DNA of 51,775 nt, from the NCBI GenBank assembly GCA_904419545.1, contig CAJFRY010000006.1, positions 90,609 through 142,383 on the forward strand. Reading direction: 5' to 3'. Within the stretch, counting starts at the first letter, position 1. Every line of letters begins with the position of its first letter. This stretch comes from Candidatus Woodwardiibium gallinarum (GTDB taxonomy: Bacteria; Bacillota; Clostridia; Oscillospirales; CAG-382). Below, piece after piece: positions 3,758 to 17,577 of this stretch. A model generated the notes under the pieces. It saw nothing but the letters and a program-made list of their open reading frames with translations, had not been told where the DNA came from and did not search any database. Position numbers and translations under genes: made by a program.

Positions 3758-4252
3758 CTACGACGCCAAAATAAACGCGTAGTCGGAGATGATATTCCCC
3801 TTTTCATCGGGCGTTGTGTAGCGCGGGCAGGTACAGTTTTGAAATGACCATACGGCGCCCTGCGCATCTTTACCGATTTTGAAGCCCGCATCTTTCAGCC
3901 GCGCAGCGCATGCACCGGGGTCATAGGAGCCGTCGCCGTAGAACCAGCACACGCCGAAGCATGCTTCGTCAAAGTCTACGCTGCAAAGCCCGTTCGGAAC
4001 CGGCGTATCCGGCGGCGTGAACATCCCGATGTAATAAGCGAACGGTTCGCCGTCGCAGTGCCGTTCCAGCCCGACGTAGCCGCCGTCCTTCCACAGCGCG
4101 CGGACAGCCTCCACGCCGCCCATTGCGCGTTCGATCGCGCCGAAGGTGTCGGTGGAAAAGCACTCGCCCCAGCTTGTAAAACCGTCGTATTTCCGGCCGA
4201 TGAAACGCATCGCCGGCACAGCCTCGCGGTAGCATTGGATAATCTCTGCCAT
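3758..4252 (-). CDS. GyrI-like / effector-binding domain protein
   Basis: 164 residues from the ATG at 4252, chosen because a GAGAGGCGGG ribosome site lies 7 nt upstream. An upstream in-frame ATG (4318) lacks one. The PAMRFIGRKY opening and the alternating strand pattern resemble the ligand-binding GyrI-like/AraC effector domain, here without any helix-turn-helix. Such stand-alone domains bind hydrophobic or cationic small molecules, and the ligand here is unknown. It is followed by two stem-loop terminators and is convergent with the DUF2461 gene. Confidence 0.6.
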   Translation of the reverse strand: MAEIIQCYREAVPAMRFIGRKYDGFTSWGECFSTDTFGAIERAMGGVEAVRALWKDGGYVGLERHCDGEPFAYYIGMFTPPDTPVPNGLCSVDFDEACFGVCWFYGDGSYDPGACAARLKDAGFKIGKDAQGAVWSFQNCTCPRYTTPDEKGNIISDYAFILAS

Positions 4253-10147: not shown

Positions 10148-12409
10148 ATGGAAACACAGACGAAAGCGTTGACAAACCGTCCGCTGCCGGACGGTACGGA
10201 AGAACGGCTGCGAAGCCGTCTGGAGGACGGCGAACGCCTGCTGTTCACCGTAGTCTGCGACCTGTCGCCCACAGGCGGCTACAGCGATTCGGTGCTGGCC
10301 GTCACCGACAGACACGTGCTGTACACCGAGGAGGACGGCAGCTTTACGGCGCTGCCGTATACGGATATTGCGGAAGCGGCGGTCAAGCGCATGTACGGCA
10401 ATGCGCGGCTGACGATGCGCAAAAAAGACGGCGGGACGGTGCGCGCCGTGCGGTTCACCTACGCGGTGGCGTCGCTCTGCGATATGGCGGCGGCATTCAT
10501 CAACAACGTCGCGGGCGGCGAAACGCCGGACAGCGAGCTGCCCGCAGCGGAGGCGGCCTTCGACCGGATGAAGCTGGTCTGTCCCAAGTGCGGACGGCGG
10601 TTGATCCGTGAGGGCGCGGAATGCATCCGCTGCCAGTCGAAGGGCAAGATTGTCAGCAAGCTGTGGAAATACGTCGCGCCGGAAAAGAAACCGCTGATCA
10701 TCAGCCTGATCATGTCGGTCATCACGACTGCGATGGCGCTGCTGCCGCCGTTTATCACGAAGATGCTCGTTGACGAGATCATCCCCAATTCGGACAAGAA
10801 AATGCTGGTGACGGTGGTCGCGTTCCTTTTCGGCGCCTACTTTATCCAGCATGCTGTGGGCGCACTGCGCGGCTACATCCTGCGCATCGCGGGCGACAGG
10901 ATCGTGCTGCATCTGCGCAACGACGTCTATCTCAAGGCACAGTACCTGCCGATGAAGTTCTACGACAAGACCTCCACCGGCTCGGTCATCAACCGCATCT
11001 CGGGCGACACGGCCACCCTGCAGGCCTTCATCCTGCGCATCACGCAGGAGGTAATCGTGCAGTTCTTCATGCTGGTCGGCATCATCATCATTATGTTCGC
11101 TCTCGAATGGCGGCTGACGCTGCTGTCGCTGCTGCCGGTGCCGGCGGTGGTCATCGGCGTAAAAATCTTCGGGCGGAAGATCGCGCCGTTCTACAAGCGC
11201 ATCTGGCGGCGCTGGGCGGCGGTGACAAGCGTGCTGACCGACTCGATCCCCTGCATCCGCGTCATCAAATCCTTTGCGGGTGAAAAACGTGCAGTAAAGC
11301 GATTTGAAAAATACAACGAGGAATGGCTGAAGGTGGACGTCAGAAGCGCACGGATCACATCGGTCTATCCGTATATCGTCGGCTTCGTAGTGACCTGCGG
11401 CTCACTGCTGATCTGGAGCGTAGGCGGCGGCTGGGTCATTGACGAGCCGGGCGGCCCGCTCTCCCTCGGTCTGCTGGTTTCGTTCATCTCCTACGCTTCG
11501 ATGTTCTACCAGCCGGTCAACTTCTTTGCATATCTGTCCGACTCCTATCAGAGCGCGCTGGCAGCAGCCGAGCGCATCCTCGACATCCTCGATGCCGAGC
11601 CCGAGCAGTCGCCCGAGGACGGCGAAAAGCCCGACGTTATCCGCGGCCGCATCGAGTTCCGCAACGTCAGTTTCTCCTTCGACCGGACCAAGAAGGTGCT
11701 TTCCGACGTGAGCGTGACCATCGAGCCGGGCGATATCGTGGGCATCGTGGGCACGACAGGCAGCGGCAAATCAACGCTTATCAACCTGCTGATGAAATTC
11801 TACGACGGCTACGAAGGCGAAATTCTCGTGGACGGCATCGACCTTCGAAAATTGGATACAGGATATTTCCGTTCCAAAATCGGCTACGTGCAGCAGGAGC
11901 CGATGATGTTTTCCGATACCATCTACAACAACATCGCCTACGGCGTCCCGGGTGCGCACATCGAGCAGGTCATCAACGCCGCGGACGTCGCTAACGCGCA
12001 CGAATTCATCGCGCGGCAGCCCGACGCGTACGATTCGATGCTGGGCGAGCGCGGCGTGGGGCTTTCGGGCGGCGAGAAGCAGCGGATTTCCATCGCCCGC
12101 GCGGTGCTGATGAATCCGAGCATCCTCATCTTCGATGAGGCGACTGCAGCCGTCGACTCGGAAACCGAGAACCTGATCCAGGAGGCCATCGAACGTCTCA
12201 TCAGCGGCCGGACGACGCTGATGATTGCGCACCGCCTGTCCACGCTGCGGAAGGCGAACAAAATCATCGTCGTCGATCAGGGCCGCATCATCGAATGCGG
12301 CTCGCACGACGAGCTGATGGCGCTCGGCGGCAAGTATCACCGGCTCATCGAGATTCAGTCGATGTCCGAAAAGCTGCGCAGGAGCAAAGAGGAAGAGAGG
12401 TTTGAATAA
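10148..12409 (+). CDS. ABC exporter (fused permease-ATPase) with PH-like and zinc-ribbon N-terminus
   Basis: 753 residues. About 20-130 form a compact beta domain that looks PH-like (TDRHVLYTEEDGSFTALPY). A four-cysteine ribbon CPKCGRRLIREGAECIRCQ sits near 144-162. Six membrane segments of a type I exporter follow (about 180-460). The ATPase has Walker A GTTGSGKST (about 535-543), signature LSGGEKQR (about 639), Walker B ILIFDEAT and the H-loop IAHRLST. Half-transporter, so it should act as a dimer. It overlaps none of its neighbours, but the DUF1854 gene starts on the next base after its stop. In other bacteria DUF1854 proteins accompany such ABC exporters linked to cyanophycin metabolism. 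No cyanophycin gene is seen here, so the substrate is unknown. Confidence 0.9.
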   Translation: METQTKALTNRPLPDGTEERLRSRLEDGERLLFTVVCDLSPTGGYSDSVLAVTDRHVLYTEEDGSFTALPYTDIAEAAVKRMYGNARLTMRKKDGGTVRAVRFTYAVASLCDMAAAFINNVAGGETPDSELPAAEAAFDRMKLVCPKCGRRLIREGAECIRCQSKGKIVSKLWKYVAPEKKPLIISLIMSVITTAMALLPPFITKMLVDEIIPNSDKKMLVTVVAFLFGAYFIQHAVGALRGYILRIAGDRIVLHLRNDVYLKAQYLPMKFYDKTSTGSVINRISGDTATLQAFILRITQEVIVQFFMLVGIIIIMFALEWRLTLLSLLPVPAVVIGVKIFGRKIAPFYKRIWRRWAAVTSVLTDSIPCIRVIKSFAGEKRAVKRFEKYNEEWLKVDVRSARITSVYPYIVGFVVTCGSLLIWSVGGGWVIDEPGGPLSLGLLVSFISYASMFYQPVNFFAYLSDSYQSALAAAERILDILDAEPEQSPEDGEKPDVIRGRIEFRNVSFSFDRTKKVLSDVSVTIEPGDIVGIVGTTGSGKSTLINLLMKFYDGYEGEILVDGIDLRKLDTGYFRSKIGYVQQEPMMFSDTIYNNIAYGVPGAHIEQVINAADVANAHEFIARQPDAYDSMLGERGVGLSGGEKQRISIARAVLMNPSILIFDEATAAVDSETENLIQEAIERLISGRTTLMIAHRLSTLRKANKIIVVDQGRIIECGSHDELMALGGKYHRLIEIQSMSEKLRRSKEEERFE

Positions 12410-12898
12410 ATGGCAAGAACCTACATAGAGGGCGACGAGGCGCGCATCGAGCGCACCGACTTCTGCAAGGTCACGCTGACCTACTACGACGGGCGCGTTT
12501 TTGAAGATTTGGAGCCGCGCCGTCTGTTTCCGCTCTCCGGACTGCACAAATACATTACGCTGCTCGATCCCGAGGGACGAGAGGCGGCCATCATCCGCAG
12601 CCTCGATACGCTCATGCCTGAGTCGCGGCAGGCGGTGGAGGCGTGTCTGGAGGAATTCTACCTCATCCCGCGCATCACGGGCATCTACGATATCACCGAC
12701 AAAAAGGGGTCGCTGAGCTGGCATGTCCAGACCGACCGCGGCGAGCGGCGCTTTTCCATCCGCAACCGGCACAGCGATATCAAGGTGCTCTACGACGGCC
12801 GCGTGCTCATCCGCGATTCGGACGACAACCGATATGAGATCCCCTCGCTTGACAGGCTCGACAAGAAGAGCCGCTCCAAACTGAAAAGTGAAATCTGA
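12410..12898 (+). CDS. DUF1854 family protein
   Basis: 162 residues, soluble and beta-rich. It matches DUF1854 in length and in segments such as RRLFPLSGLHKYITLLD and the ITGIYDITDKKGSLSWHV core, with RFSIRNRHSDIK following. The first codon lies immediately after the stop of the ABC exporter gene and the ribosome site GAAGAGAGG is inside that gene, so the two are translationally linked. A partner or regulatory role for the exporter is likely from this conserved pairing. The biochemical activity is unknown. A c-di-AMP receptor gene follows 23 bp later. Confidence 0.85.
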   Translation: MARTYIEGDEARIERTDFCKVTLTYYDGRVFEDLEPRRLFPLSGLHKYITLLDPEGREAAIIRSLDTLMPESRQAVEACLEEFYLIPRITGIYDITDKKGSLSWHVQTDRGERRFSIRNRHSDIKVLYDGRVLIRDSDDNRYEIPSLDRLDKKSRSKLKSEI

Positions 12899-12921: not shown

Positions 12922-13251
12922 ATGACAAAACTCGTTCTGGCAATCATCAACAACGACGACAGCGCCATCGCGACCTCCGCGCTCAATGCCGAAGGCTTTT
13001 TCGTGACCAGGCTGTCGACGACGGGCGGCTTTCTTACGGTCGGCAACACCACGCTGCTCATCGGCACCGAGGACGGCAAGGTCGAGCGGATCAAGGAGAT
13101 CCTATCCCGTACCTGCGCCACGCGCAGACAGCTCAATCCCTCCTCGCAGAATTACGGAAAGGGGCTCAAATCCTTTTCCCCCGCCGACGAGGTGACGGTC
13201 GGCGGCGCGACGCTGTTCGTGCTCGGCGTGGAGCAGTTCGAGAAGCTGTAA
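12922..13251 (+). CDS. darA: Cyclic-di-AMP receptor, DarA/PstA (PII-like)
   Basis: 109 residues from ATG 12922 (AAAGGA upstream), the usual length. It has the DarA/PstA pattern of a PII-like trimer: MTKLVLAIINNDD start, TRLSTTGGFLTVGNTTLLIG (about 29-48) forming ligand loops, and the C-terminal GGATLFVLGVEQFEKL strand. Family members bind c-di-AMP between subunits; what they control is poorly understood. Usually it lies near tmk and holB. Here it is the third gene of an ABC-exporter operon, which suggests, by context only, that exporter activity could be tied to c-di-AMP. Confidence 0.92.
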   Translation: MTKLVLAIINNDDSAIATSALNAEGFFVTRLSTTGGFLTVGNTTLLIGTEDGKVERIKEILSRTCATRRQLNPSSQNYGKGLKSFSPADEVTVGGATLFVLGVEQFEKL

Positions 13252-13262
13252 TCCTGTGATCC

Positions 13263-13304
13263 GATACGGCCGCCGCATAAAAAACAGAATTATGCGTCGT
13301 ATCC
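13263..13304 (+). terminator. Stem-loop after darA
   Basis: GATACG pairs with CGTATC and CGCATAA with TTATGCG around a short A-rich loop. It lacks a long T-run, so termination strength is uncertain. Confidence 0.4.
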
Positions 13305-13306
13305 CC

Positions 13307-13335
13307 TTTACAAACGAGCCGGAATCTGTTATACT
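13307..13335 (+). promoter_or_regulatory. Promoter of the hydEGF leader
   Basis: TTTACA (13307-13312), 17 bp, TATACT (13330-13335). The transcript should start near 13342. Confidence 0.75.
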
Positions 13336-13341
13336 TTAATC

Positions 13342-13481
13342 AGAATCCTGACATCAAAGCTTTGCGCTGCGTGAAAGGATGCGAATCCACGAAACGATTT
13401 ACAACGGAGACACGGGACAGCCGTGTTCCCTTTTCATGCCGCTTCGCCGCATCCTTTGTCGGGATGCGGCATTTGTTTTTT
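13342..13481 (+). ncRNA. Candidate riboswitch or attenuator leader of hydEGF
   Basis: A leader of about 140 nt ends in an intrinsic terminator: GCCGCATCC (13446-13454) pairs with GGATGCGGC (13462-13470), then a T-rich run to 13481. An earlier segment AAAGGATGCG (13374-13383) is perfectly complementary over 10 bp to CGCATCCTTT (13448-13457), the 5' arm of that terminator. The two folds exclude each other, as in a transcriptional switch. The early segment can also fold as GGAT-GCGA-ATCC, and ACACGG/CCGTGT (13410-13426) makes another hairpin. I could not match the aptamer part to a known riboswitch or T-box class. Confidence 0.55.
13446..13481 (+). terminator. Leader terminator
   Basis: A 9-bp GC-rich stem, 7-nt loop and ATTTGTTTTTT tail. 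It ends 13 nt before an excellent ribosome site and ATG at 13495. Confidence 0.8.
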
Positions 13482-13494
13482 ACGGAGGTAAGGT

Positions 13495-13788
13495 ATGAAA
13501 ATCCATCCTGCGGCCACACGCCGCACCGCAAACGGCCCGGGCGCGACGGGACGAGAGGGCGGAAAGCTACGGGCAGCCATGCACCGGAGGACCGCTTGCC
13601 CGCAGCGCCGTTCCCTTTCATACTTCTGTTTGGCATTCGCGCAAGCAAATGACGCTCCGGGCAAAGCCCGGAGAAATATGCCGTACAATATCTGTTTCCT
13701 GCAAAGCCAAATGGATTTGCAGGTTGCGGTATTTGCCGCAGGGGATAAAACGGCTTCAAACCGTTTGATCAAGAAAATGGTATTATGA
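13495..13788 (+). CDS. 97-codon frame coupled to hydE, function unknown
   Basis: The ATG at 13495 has an ideal GGAGGTAAGG ribosome site 6 nt upstream. The stop codon overlaps the hydE start as ATGA (13785-13788). hydE has no convincing ribosome site of its own, so translation of this frame probably drives hydE. The product is basic and low-complexity (rich in Arg, Ala, Pro). Its second half is encoded by dispersed repeat copy B and shares FAQA.DAPGKAR and PYNICFL with copy A's frame. It may be a leader frame created by repeat insertion and not a functional protein. Confidence 0.4.
   Translation: MKIHPAATRRTANGPGATGREGGKLRAAMHRRTACPQRRSLSYFCLAFAQANDAPGKARRNMPYNICFLQSQMDLQVAVFAAGDKTASNRLIKKMVL
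13634..13786 (+). repeat. Dispersed palindromic repeat, copy B
   Basis: Same element as copy A at 9642-9770: the CTCCGGGC-aaa-GCCCGGAG hairpin, the segment ending ACAATATCTGTTTC and a TGCGG/CCGCA hairpin. It has an extra 24-bp hairpin insert (CTGCAAA/TTTGCAG) and a 12-bp insert. Its right end abuts the hydE start codon. Confidence 0.75.
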
Positions 13789-14840
13789 ACGGCTCAATCT
13801 CTTCCCTGATCGACCGTCTGGCCGCCGCGCACCGGCTCGAGCACGGCGAATACAAAGCGCTCATTGACGGCCGGACCCCCGAAGCGGCGGAACGGCTGGC
13901 AGCCCTTGCGTCGGAAGCCCGCAAAAGAATCTACGGAAACAAAATTTACATCCGCGGTCTGATCGAAATCAGCAGCATCTGCAAAAACGACTGCCTGTAC
14001 TGCGGGCTCCGCAGAAGCAACCGAAGCTGTCAGCGCTACCGTCTTGACGCGGACAAAATCCTGTCCTGCTGCCGGGAAGGTTATGCGCTGGGCTTCCGCA
14101 CATTTGTCCTGCAGGGCGGCGAGGACGCGTATTTTACCGATGGGCGCCTCTGCGGACTCCTGCGCGCAATCAAGCGCGAGCATCCCGACTGCGCCGTAAC
14201 GCTTTCGTTTGGAGAACGCAGCCGGGAAAGCTACGAACGCCTGCGCGAAGCCGGCGCCGACCGCTATCTTCTGCGGCACGAAACCGCCGACGCGGCGCAT
14301 TATGCAAAGCTCCACCCCGCTTCAATGTCATTTGAAAACCGAATGCGCTGCCTGAACGATCTGAAGGCGCTCGGTTATCAGGTCGGCTGCGGGTTTATGG
14401 TAGGATCGCCCCGCCAGACCTCCGAAACGCTGGCTTCGGACCTGAAATTTGTGGAAGCCTTTCAGCCCGATATGTGTGGAATCGGCCCGTTCATACCGCA
14501 GTCCGAAACGCCCTTCCGTGCGGAAAAAGCAGGCTCTCTGGAGCTGACCTGCTATCTTTTGTCAATCCTGCGTCTGATCCGTCCGAACCTGTTGCTGCCG
14601 GCCACCACGGCGCTCGGATCCGTCCATCCCTTTGGCCGGGAGATGGGCATACAAGCCGGCGCAAACGTCGTTATGCCGAATCTGTCTCCGCAGGCGGTGC
14701 GAAAAAAATATGCGCTGTACGACAACAAGGTCACCGACGGGGACGAATCGGCGCAGTGCGTCGCTTCGCTCGCCGCGCGAATGGCCGCCATCGGCTACGA
14801 GGCGGTCATCGACCGGGGCGATGTCATCCGCTCCGATTAA
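13785..14840 (+). CDS. hydE: [FeFe]-hydrogenase maturase HydE (radical SAM)
   Basis: 351 residues. The radical-SAM cluster motif CX3CX2C is at Cys66, Cys70 and Cys73 (CKNDCLYC). The FVLQGGED, SFGERSRESYERL and ETADAAHYAKLHP segments are typical of HydE. With HydG and HydF it builds the two-iron subcluster of the H-cluster, and HydE processes an iron-cyanide-carbonyl-cysteine precursor. The start at 13785 overlaps the stop of the upstream 97-codon frame. hydG follows 57 bp downstream with its own GAGAAAGGA ribosome site. Confidence 0.94.
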   Translation: MNGSISSLIDRLAAAHRLEHGEYKALIDGRTPEAAERLAALASEARKRIYGNKIYIRGLIEISSICKNDCLYCGLRRSNRSCQRYRLDADKILSCCREGYALGFRTFVLQGGEDAYFTDGRLCGLLRAIKREHPDCAVTLSFGERSRESYERLREAGADRYLLRHETADAAHYAKLHPASMSFENRMRCLNDLKALGYQVGCGFMVGSPRQTSETLASDLKFVEAFQPDMCGIGPFIPQSETPFRAEKAGSLELTCYLLSILRLIRPNLLLPATTALGSVHPFGREMGIQAGANVVMPNLSPQAVRKKYALYDNKVTDGDESAQCVASLAARMAAIGYEAVIDRGDVIRSD

Positions 14841-14897: not shown

Positions 14898-16355
14898 ATG
14901 GCAATCTACAATCCCGCATCGCTAAAAGCCGAGGAATTTATTTCCGATGCCGAAATCCGTGAAACGCTGGCATACGCCGAAGCAAACAAACACAACCTCC
15001 CGCTCATCGAAGCGCTTCTCGAAAAAGCAAGGCCGAAAAAAACGGCGAATGGCCACGTCTGCGCCGGGCTGTCCCACCGGGAAGCGTCGGTGCTGCTCGC
15101 CTGCGACATACCCGAAGTGACGGAAAGAATCTTCAAAATCGCCGAAGAAATCAAGCTGGCCTTCTACGGCAACCGCATCGTCATTTTTGCACCGCTGTAC
15201 CTTTCAAATTACTGCATAAACGGCTGCGTATACTGTCCCTATCACGCGAAGAACAAGCACATACCGAGGAAAAAGCTGTCGCAGGAGGAACTGCGTGCCG
15301 AGGTCATCGCGCTCCAGGACCAGGGCCACAAGCGTCTTGCCATCGAGGCGGGCGAAGACCCCATCCATAACCCGATTGACTATATCCTCGAATGCATCCA
15401 TACCATATACAGCATTCATCACAAGAACGGCGACATCCGCCGCGTGAATGTAAACATAGCCGCCACCACCGTGGAAAACTACCGCAGGCTGAAGGAAGCG
15501 GGCATCGGCACATATATCCTGTTTCAGGAGACCTATCACAAGGAAAGCTATGAGCAGCTCCACCCCACGGGTCCGAAGCACGATTATGCGTACCATACCG
15601 AAGCGATGGACCGCGCTATGGACGGCGGCATCGACGACGTCGGACTCGGCGTCCTGTTCGGGCTGGAATATTACAAATATGATTTTGCGGGGCTGCTGAT
15701 GCATGCCGAGCATCTGGAGGCGGTCCATGGCGTCGGCCCGCATACGATCAGCGTACCGCGCATCAAGCGCGCCGACGACATCGACCCCGACGCGTTCGAC
15801 AACGGCATCGACGACGACACCTTTGCCAAGATCACCGCCTGTATCCGTCTGGCGGTGCCGTATACCGGCATCATCATCTCCACCCGCGAAAACGAGAACA
15901 TCCGTTCCAGGCTGCTCCGTCTGGGAGTTTCACAGGTTTCCGGCGGCTCGCGGACCTCCGTGGGCGGCTACGCCGGCTACAGCAGCGACGAGCGCCCGCA
16001 TGACACCGAGCAGTTCGACGTTTCCGACCAGCGGTCGCTGGACGAGGTGGTCTGCTGGCTGATGGAAAACGGCCACATCCCATCCTTCTGTACGGCCTGT
16101 TACCGCGAAGGGCGTACGGGCGACCGTTTTATGAGCCTGTGCAAATCGGGGCAGATCCTCAACTGCTGCCAACCGAATGCGCTGATGACCCTGACCGAAT
16201 ATCTGGTGGACTACGCCTCCGAAAAGACCAGAGCCGTCGGCTTTCGGATGATAGAGGAGGAACTGAAACGGATTCCCGGCGAAAAGGTGCGCCGCATAGC
16301 GGAGCAGAACATTTCAGACATCAAAAGCTCCAATCGCCGCGATTTCCGATTTTAA
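14898..16355 (+). CDS. hydG: [FeFe]-hydrogenase maturase HydG (tyrosine lyase)
   Basis: 485 residues, full length. The radical-SAM motif is at Cys106, Cys110 and Cys113 (CINGCVYC). The second, auxiliary cluster motif CX2CX22C is present near the C-terminus (FCTACYREGRTGDRF, then a terminal Cys pair). HydG splits tyrosine into p-cresol, CO and cyanide and makes the Fe(CO)2(CN) unit for the H-cluster. The tail carries the expected ALMTLTEYLVDYAS helix. It is the middle gene of hydE-hydG-hydF, 19 bp before hydF. Confidence 0.96.
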   Translation: MAIYNPASLKAEEFISDAEIRETLAYAEANKHNLPLIEALLEKARPKKTANGHVCAGLSHREASVLLACDIPEVTERIFKIAEEIKLAFYGNRIVIFAPLYLSNYCINGCVYCPYHAKNKHIPRKKLSQEELRAEVIALQDQGHKRLAIEAGEDPIHNPIDYILECIHTIYSIHHKNGDIRRVNVNIAATTVENYRRLKEAGIGTYILFQETYHKESYEQLHPTGPKHDYAYHTEAMDRAMDGGIDDVGLGVLFGLEYYKYDFAGLLMHAEHLEAVHGVGPHTISVPRIKRADDIDPDAFDNGIDDDTFAKITACIRLAVPYTGIIISTRENENIRSRLLRLGVSQVSGGSRTSVGGYAGYSSDERPHDTEQFDVSDQRSLDEVVCWLMENGHIPSFCTACYREGRTGDRFMSLCKSGQILNCCQPNALMTLTEYLVDYASEKTRAVGFRMIEEELKRIPGEKVRRIAEQNISDIKSSNRRDFRF

Positions 16356-16374: not shown

Positions 16375-17577
16375 ATGGGACTAAACGACGTCGTATCGGC
16401 CGAGCGGCTGCACATCGGCTTTTTCGGCATGTGCAACGCCGGCAAATCCAGTCTGGTCAACGCCGTGACCGGACAGCAGCTCTCGGTCGTGTCCGAGGTC
16501 AGGGGCACGACGACCGACCCGGTTAAAAAAGCAATGGAGCTGCTGCCGCTGGGCCCCGTCGTCATTTTGGACACACCGGGCCTCGACGACGAAAGCGAGT
16601 TGGGCAAGCTGCGCGTGGAGAGAGCTGAGCGGATGCTGGCGCAGACGGACATTGCCGTTCTGGTAGCGGATGGAACGCAGGGCCTGCGCGACGAGGACGC
16701 AAGACTGTTAGAGCAGCTCGACGCGCGCAAAATTCCCTACATCATCGCCTACAGCAAGGCGGACCGCGTCGCGAAGCGGGGCGCAGTCGGTGAAAACGCG
16801 CTCTATGTCAGCGCCGTCACGGGCGAGGGGATTTTTGAACTGAAGGAACGGCTGGGGGCATTTGCCAAACGCCTGCAAAACCCGAAATCCCTCGTGCGCG
16901 ACCTGCTGGCGGCGGGAAACGTGGTGGTCCTGGTGACGCCGATTGACGAAGCGGCGCCCAAGGGCAGGCTGATCCTGCCCCAGCAGATGGTCCTGCGCGA
17001 CGTTCTGGACGCAAACGCCATCGCCGTCGTCTGTCAGGACACCGAGCTGCAAAGGACGCTGGACAGCCTGAAAAACAAGCCTCGGATGGTCATCACCGAC
17101 TCGCAGGCGTTTGAAAGCGTCGCCAGGTGCACGCCCGCCGACGTCCCTTTGACCTCCTTTTCCATCCTGATGGCGCGCTACAAAGGCGACCTGCGCGAAC
17201 TGGTAAAAGGCTTCGCCGCGCTGCGGACGCTGCGGGACGGCGACAGGGTGCTGATCTCCGAGGGCTGCACGCACCACCGGCAGTGCAACGACATCGGCAC
17301 CGTGAAAATGCCGGGGTGGATCGAGCGCTTCACGGGCGTAAAGCCCGCGTACAGCTTCACCTCCGGCGGGGAATTCCCGAAAGAGCTGAAGGACTGCCGC
17401 GTGATCGTGCATTGCGGCGGCTGTATGCTCAACGAAGCCGAAATGAAGCACCGCATCCGCCAAGCCATGGATTCAAACGTACCGATTGTGAATTACGGAA
17501 TCGCCATCGCAGGCATGCACGGCATCCTTCGCCGCAGTCTGGAGCTTTTTCCGGACATTCTGCGCCTGCTGGACTGA
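16375..17577 (+). CDS. hydF: [FeFe]-hydrogenase maturase HydF (GTPase scaffold)
   Basis: 400 residues. The N-terminal GTPase domain has G1 GMCNAGKSS (18-26), DTPG and YSKAD. The C-terminal cluster site fits CxHx46CxxC: Cys298, His300, then Cys347 and Cys350, with His346 before the pair. HydF is the scaffold on which the two-iron subcluster is assembled before transfer to the hydrogenase. Ribosome site GGGAGAG lies upstream. A strong terminator at 17588-17632 closes the operon. No hydrogenase structural gene is in the window. Confidence 0.95.
   Translation: MGLNDVVSAERLHIGFFGMCNAGKSSLVNAVTGQQLSVVSEVRGTTTDPVKKAMELLPLGPVVILDTPGLDDESELGKLRVERAERMLAQTDIAVLVADGTQGLRDEDARLLEQLDARKIPYIIAYSKADRVAKRGAVGENALYVSAVTGEGIFELKERLGAFAKRLQNPKSLVRDLLAAGNVVVLVTPIDEAAPKGRLILPQQMVLRDVLDANAIAVVCQDTELQRTLDSLKNKPRMVITDSQAFESVARCTPADVPLTSFSILMARYKGDLRELVKGFAALRTLRDGDRVLISEGCTHHRQCNDIGTVKMPGWIERFTGVKPAYSFTSGGEFPKELKDCRVIVHCGGCMLNEAEMKHRIRQAMDSNVPIVNYGIAIAGMHGILRRSLELFPDILRLLD

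Follow-up and report, generated by a model that had tools for sequence, protein, structure and literature searches.

The window examined here, a stretch of 51,775 nucleotides from the genome of Candidatus Woodwardiibium gallinarum, carries three [FeFe]-hydrogenase maturation genes in succession on its forward strand: hydE (13785-14840; TIGR03956, 547 bits), hydG (14898-16355; TIGR03955, 896 bits) and hydF (16375-17577; TIGR03918, 537 bits). These matches bear out the hydEGF assignment of a first-pass annotation made from the sequence alone. The same annotation had placed a promoter, a leader of about 140 nucleotides and an intrinsic terminator before these genes, and all are present on the same strand within 13307-13481. 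The promoter is of the sigma-A type (TTTACA-17-TATACT, with TG before the -10 box; 13307-13335), and a promoter scan finds no other promoter-like site in 2 kb, where shuffled sequences give 0.7. Directly upstream of the leader, on the same strand, lies a gene for the cyclic-di-AMP receptor DarA/PstA (PF06153; 12922-13251), itself preceded by an ABC transporter open reading frame and then a gene for a DUF1854 'cyanophycin metabolism-associated' protein (10148-12898).

Between the leader and hydE, about 290 nucleotides are without recognisable coding. In related genomes this place (13495-13784, + strand) is occupied by hyd_TM1266, of which no coding remains in the window: a search for TM1266 found none at the locus, and no NCBIfam model matched the open reading frame at 13495-13788. 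The TM1266 gene of this genome is found on another contig (C28), away from the hyd operon. A dispersed repeat of about 145 nucleotides (13634-13777, + strand) sits between leader and hydE, and it has dozens of other copies across the genome, full or partial and 71-91% identical, with short inverted matches. The operon has lost hyd_TM1266, and the repeat now occupies the vacated place. We rejected the repeat as the origin of the leader, because it begins downstream at 13634 and the leader occurs nowhere else in the genome.

At the very 5' end of the leader is a hairpin (13345-13380) that alignment of 36 cores, pair counts and covariation identify as the conserved sensing element, or anti-antiterminator. 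It consists of an outer helix, P1a (13345-13349/13376-13380), with the base CCU/AGG, a GA/AA internal loop (13350-13351/13374-13375), a covarying middle helix, P1b (13352-13354/13371-13373), and an apical helix, P2 (13358-13360/13366-13368). When 13344-13380 is folded without constraint, the minimum free energy (MFE) structure is exactly this arrangement (-9.4 kcal/mol). The 3' side of P1a overlaps the antiterminator 5' strand AAAGGATGCG (13374-13383), which pairs at 10/10 positions with CGCATCCTTT (13448-13457), so that the perfect ten-base-pair complement noted in the first-pass annotation holds in full. CGCATCCTTT lies within the 5' arm and loop edge of the intrinsic terminator, a stem-loop of 10 pairs (13446-13470) followed by a U-rich tail (13471-13481). 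The intervening spacer (13384-13445) is not conserved and includes a local hairpin (13409-13427). The leader as a whole is more stable than its dinucleotide shuffles (z -2.95 for the MFE).

Two other foldings were set aside. The GNRA-type hairpin that had earlier been pointed out is indeed present (GGAT-GCGA-ATCC, 13377-13388, its 3' half in the spacer), but it is not conserved, since relatives show no constraint on the sequence that follows AAAGG; we therefore reject it as the sensing element in favor of the 5' hairpin. A long helix of the MFE structure, GUGAAAGG:CCUUUUCAU, was likewise rejected, as it is not conserved and no leader forms it below -9 kcal/mol.

The first 45 nucleotides of the leader recur upstream of hydE in unrelated metagenome-assembled genomes. 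We compared 80 hydE loci from a scan of genome contigs and 25 loci from the family of the window's genome, and a covariance model (R1) places the core just after a promoter in 46 and 7 of them, respectively, counts that include many sequences from metagenome-assembled genomes and that strict filters make too low. Among 35 genomes tested, 34 hold the core exactly once. The consensus in close relatives is CCUGACAunAAGv-hairpin-CUGmGUGAAAGGurCGg, and it stands right behind the -10 box: 43 of 52 relatives have such a box (at least 5/6 matches) upstream of the motif's CC, where shuffles predict 14.6 (phylogeny is ignored in this and all other shuffle controls), and the distance is mostly 7-11 nucleotides. 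A terminator follows the core in 50 of the 52 leaders. The first gene past it is usually hyd_TM1266, followed by hydE, and TM1266 adjoins the motif in 47/53 motif loci.

Base-pair variation among these leaders supports the inner helices of the hairpin. P1b, which separates the near-invariant CCU:AGG base from P2, occurs in close relatives as CAY/RUG, CAG/CUG, CGU/ACG, CGC/GCG and UAG/UUA, and P2 changes from A-U to G-C and also swaps among A-U, C-G and G-C pairs. P1a is nearly invariant and thus varies too little to be supported by covariation itself. When 58 cores were aligned by their invariant ends only, with no fitting to structure, their own pairings gave 143 pairs versus 121 after shuffling, and the variant cores alone gave 36 versus 25 (p 0.0002). 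The competing pairing is also maintained. Each close leader's tail, AAAGGnnnnn, pairs with its own terminator 5' arm at a mean of -13.1 kcal/mol, versus -10.7 +/- 0.3 for permuted tails (0/5000). Upstream of hydE, relatives thus keep the terminator and both alternative pairings, and the proposal of a switch-like transcription attenuator before hydEGF withstands the comparison with homologous leaders that could have overturned it.

Comparative analysis thereby establishes that the hairpin, antiterminator and terminator exist and are conserved; from these we infer the direction of the switch, OFF on binding, and the involvement of a binder. The simplest reading is readthrough by default and termination once the hairpin is stabilized. 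Under this scheme, the nascent RNA would first fold the hairpin, whose CCU:AGG base is short and weak. Without a signal, AAAGG and the bases that follow would invade and pair with the terminator 5' arm as it emerges, and formation of this antiterminator would preclude the terminator and allow hydEGF to be transcribed. A binder that stabilizes the hairpin would lock AGG in place and block the antiterminator, the terminator would form, and transcription would stop about 140 nucleotides from its start. Folding energies computed at two transcript lengths have the order predicted for an OFF switch: in a transcript ending at 13459 the antiterminator is the more stable (-33.0 versus -29.5 for the hairpin state), whereas in the full-length leader the combination of hairpin and terminator is favored (-45.3 versus -42.3 for the antiterminator).

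The leader before hydEGF is one form of a wider class, for which we use the name 'hyd motif'. Across the phylum, matches to the strict models R1 and R2 were mostly chance hits in open reading frames, except in the window's genome and one other (G417), and we therefore used a general model, R3, which matches in 60/398 genomes; its matches inside unrelated genes (L281, L284, L291-L293 and others) we treated as chance. In other families, upstream of TM1266, the motif takes the general form CCUGA-NNNN-RAG...CUGA-N'N'N'N'-RAGG, with P2 between the halves. Here P1b is a helix of 4 base pairs in which every Watson-Crick pair type is seen (UUGC/GCAA, CUUA/UAAG, UAAA/UUUA, CAAA/UUUG, CCAA/UUGG, GGGA/UCCC, GGUU/AACC). 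Its covariation is 0.521 versus 0.147 +/- 0.029 for shuffled controls in 16 rows aligned by sequence, with slid structures reaching at most 0.216, and 0.469 versus 0.143 +/- 0.014 in 46 rows fitted by R3, a procedure biased towards the structure. The halves of the motif nearly match each other, with CUGA...RAG on both strands, giving the hairpin a pseudo-two-fold symmetry. Many distant leaders carry two copies in tandem, 10-20 nucleotides apart; the window type has a single copy. A simple scanner finds the motif upstream of TM1266 in 81/164 loci versus 2.65 expected from shuffles. Distant leaders also have the terminator (50/65, 2.4 expected) and the competing pairing, in which the leader's own tail and arm average -11.6 versus -10.2 +/- 0.3 when permuted (0/3000). 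The original observation is confirmed, and it is broader than first stated.

Genes directly after motif copies are hyd_TM1266, hydE, hydG, a pair comprising an aspartate ammonia-lyase-like gene (aspA, named by eye from its sequence) and hydF, and an NMT1/SsuA-like ABC transporter, with or without TM1266. Some genomes, such as G121, carry separate copies before TM1266 and before hydG. The motif precedes the transporter at seven loci (L280, L287, L290, L297, L298, L265 and L279), its binding-protein family being assigned from the copy in the genome analysed here, and these arrangements suggest that the transporter is linked to H-cluster assembly. On contig C28, the genome's single hyd_TM1266 lies behind a leader with the element TTCTGACGCATGAGGGTCCGTCCCGAATGGAAAGG (L124, 1376-1412) and a terminator, and is itself followed by a gene for an SsuA/NMT1-like substrate-binding protein. 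Reading by eye, we tentatively regard TTCTGACGCATGAGGGTCCGTCCCGAATGGAAAGG as a second, divergent copy of the motif, which our models do not score.

No Rfam 15 family accounts for the motif. The covariance models gave 0 matches at gathering score over the whole window and, with lax filters, only chance matches far below threshold in 13240-13800. Twenty related loci gave no match on the motif, the single match (TwoAYGGAY) lying elsewhere in one of them (L214). No T-box match appeared at any reported level in the window, in 13240-13800 or in the 20 related loci. The first-pass annotation's failure to recognize a class is thus matched by the Rfam search. We found no description of a hydE or TM1266 leader RNA in the open literature searched, and a term search of PMC2864571, PMC11109978 and PMC8040213 found none; an unnamed match in a long supplementary candidate list is possible. 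On comparative grounds, we consider it probable that the leader attenuates transcription in cis, that it belongs to an RNA class not filed before, the hyd motif, and that this class controls maturation genes of [FeFe]-hydrogenase.

What might bind the hairpin? The most prominent candidate is the small protein TM1266 (PF21699/TIGR03959, 'iron-only hydrogenase system regulator, putative'). A single structure has been solved for it, 2nzc, which contains four chains and was entered as a hypothetical protein. TM1266 is encoded in 57/60 motif-positive genomes versus 153/337 others (p 2e-14, phylogeny ignored), and common descent could account for some of this co-occurrence. The three exceptions are two genomes with weak motif matches that adjoin no hyd gene (G333, G435) and one without HydE (G301). 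The 153 genomes that have TM1266 with no detected motif are explained in part by strict filters and divergent variants. Among 35 motif genomes, 34 have TM1266, and four of them, including the window's genome, keep it outside the operon. Conversely, the motif stands at hydE or hydG in 0/13 genomes that have hydE and lack TM1266. As expected of a protein-dependent attenuator, the gene for TM1266 is thus either part of the operon under control or inherited together with it. In two loci (L078 and L099, about 3970-4010) hyd_TM1266 has shrunk to a stub some dozen codons long and the leader remains; that of L099 is missing one G near P1b, perhaps as decay begins.

Co-occurrence, two-fold symmetry and tandem sites therefore make TM1266 a plausible RNA-binding regulator. 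It is the most likely binder, and we give about even chances to its acting as a putative RNA-binding repressor of its own regulon, in feedback from maturation status. Somewhat short of that, we tentatively propose that TM1266, which is widespread, is a putative RNA-binding attenuation protein that would read hydrogenase-maturation status and repress an entire H-cluster regulon (hydE, hydG, hydF-aspA, TM1266 and the ABC importer) across Bacillota through a new pseudo-symmetric, often tandem hairpin.

Several established systems work by comparable logic, and the hyd motif would add a new RNA class to a type of device already known. In the PyrR-dependent pyr attenuators of Bacillota, a conserved 5' anti-antiterminator hairpin, whose 3' strand otherwise serves as antiterminator, frees the terminator when stabilized, and the regulator is encoded in the controlled operon. 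The hyd motif shares these features, but its sequence and hairpin are unrelated, its regulon is hydrogenase maturation, and TM1266 binding is putative, whereas PyrR binding is experimentally known. OFF riboswitches such as those for purines, SAM (SAM-I) and lysine likewise arrange aptamer, antiterminator and terminator as exclusive helices just after the promoter; the hyd hairpin, however, is much smaller and symmetric, and no Rfam riboswitch model matches it. Small hairpins in tandem, as in many distant hyd leaders, are also typical of guanidine-II (mini-ykkC) RNAs and ANTAR targets. The hyd motif differs from these in carrying its conserved bases in internal loops (CUGA/RAG) rather than apical loops, in lacking an Rfam match and, in the window type, in being single copy.

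A metabolite or metal riboswitch is a serious rival to the TM1266 model, although we think it rather less than probable. Here the hairpin alone would bind a ligand linked to the H-cluster, such as iron, a HydG or HydE intermediate, a tyrosine- or serine-derived species, SAM or the substrate of the ABC transporter, and TM1266 would merely be a member of the regulon. Two features expected of a riboswitch are present in the leader: a structured sensing domain that is conserved and covaries, and an expression platform whose mutually exclusive pairings are kept in homologues. A regulon of enzymes together with an NMT1/SsuA-like transporter is the kind that riboswitches typically control, the GA and R bases of the loops are strongly conserved, tandem copies recall glycine riboswitches, and in G473 (L078) the leader persists with TM1266 reduced to a stub. 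Yet the motif is very small and conserves few bases outside its helices, and a nearly two-fold symmetric shape is more usual for the site of a protein dimer. Its strong association with TM1266, including where the two are unlinked, and the failure to find the motif in hydE genomes lacking TM1266, also speak against a hairpin that acts alone. On balance, a riboswitch that binds a ligand is no more likely than a TM1266-dependent attenuator.

Two further explanations seem improbable. The loss of the ancestral first gene from the window's operon and the repeat downstream might fit a fixed partial terminator, whose alternative pairings set a constant readthrough with no response to signals, but such an element would not keep covarying, mutually exclusive helices across many families, and we regard it as quite unlikely. 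Still harder to credit is a leader peptide whose translation by the ribosome sets attenuation. The sequence AAAGG is reminiscent of a Shine-Dalgarno element and has an ATG after it in the window; an examination of the bases after AAAGG in 52 leaders, however, found no conserved start codon and nothing of the conserved short open reading frame with regulatory codons that marks such attenuators. Where ATG is present it abuts AAAGG without spacing, and what is conserved is a hairpin with covariation rather than a run of codons.

To our knowledge, the regulation of [FeFe]-hydrogenase H-cluster assembly in bacteria is largely unknown, and we know of no target so far for TM1266, hitherto a 'putative regulator'. 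The hyd motif would supply a concrete cis target, a proposed switching mechanism and a defined regulon that includes a transporter, which may be of relevance to H2-producing gut Clostridia and to biohydrogen strains.
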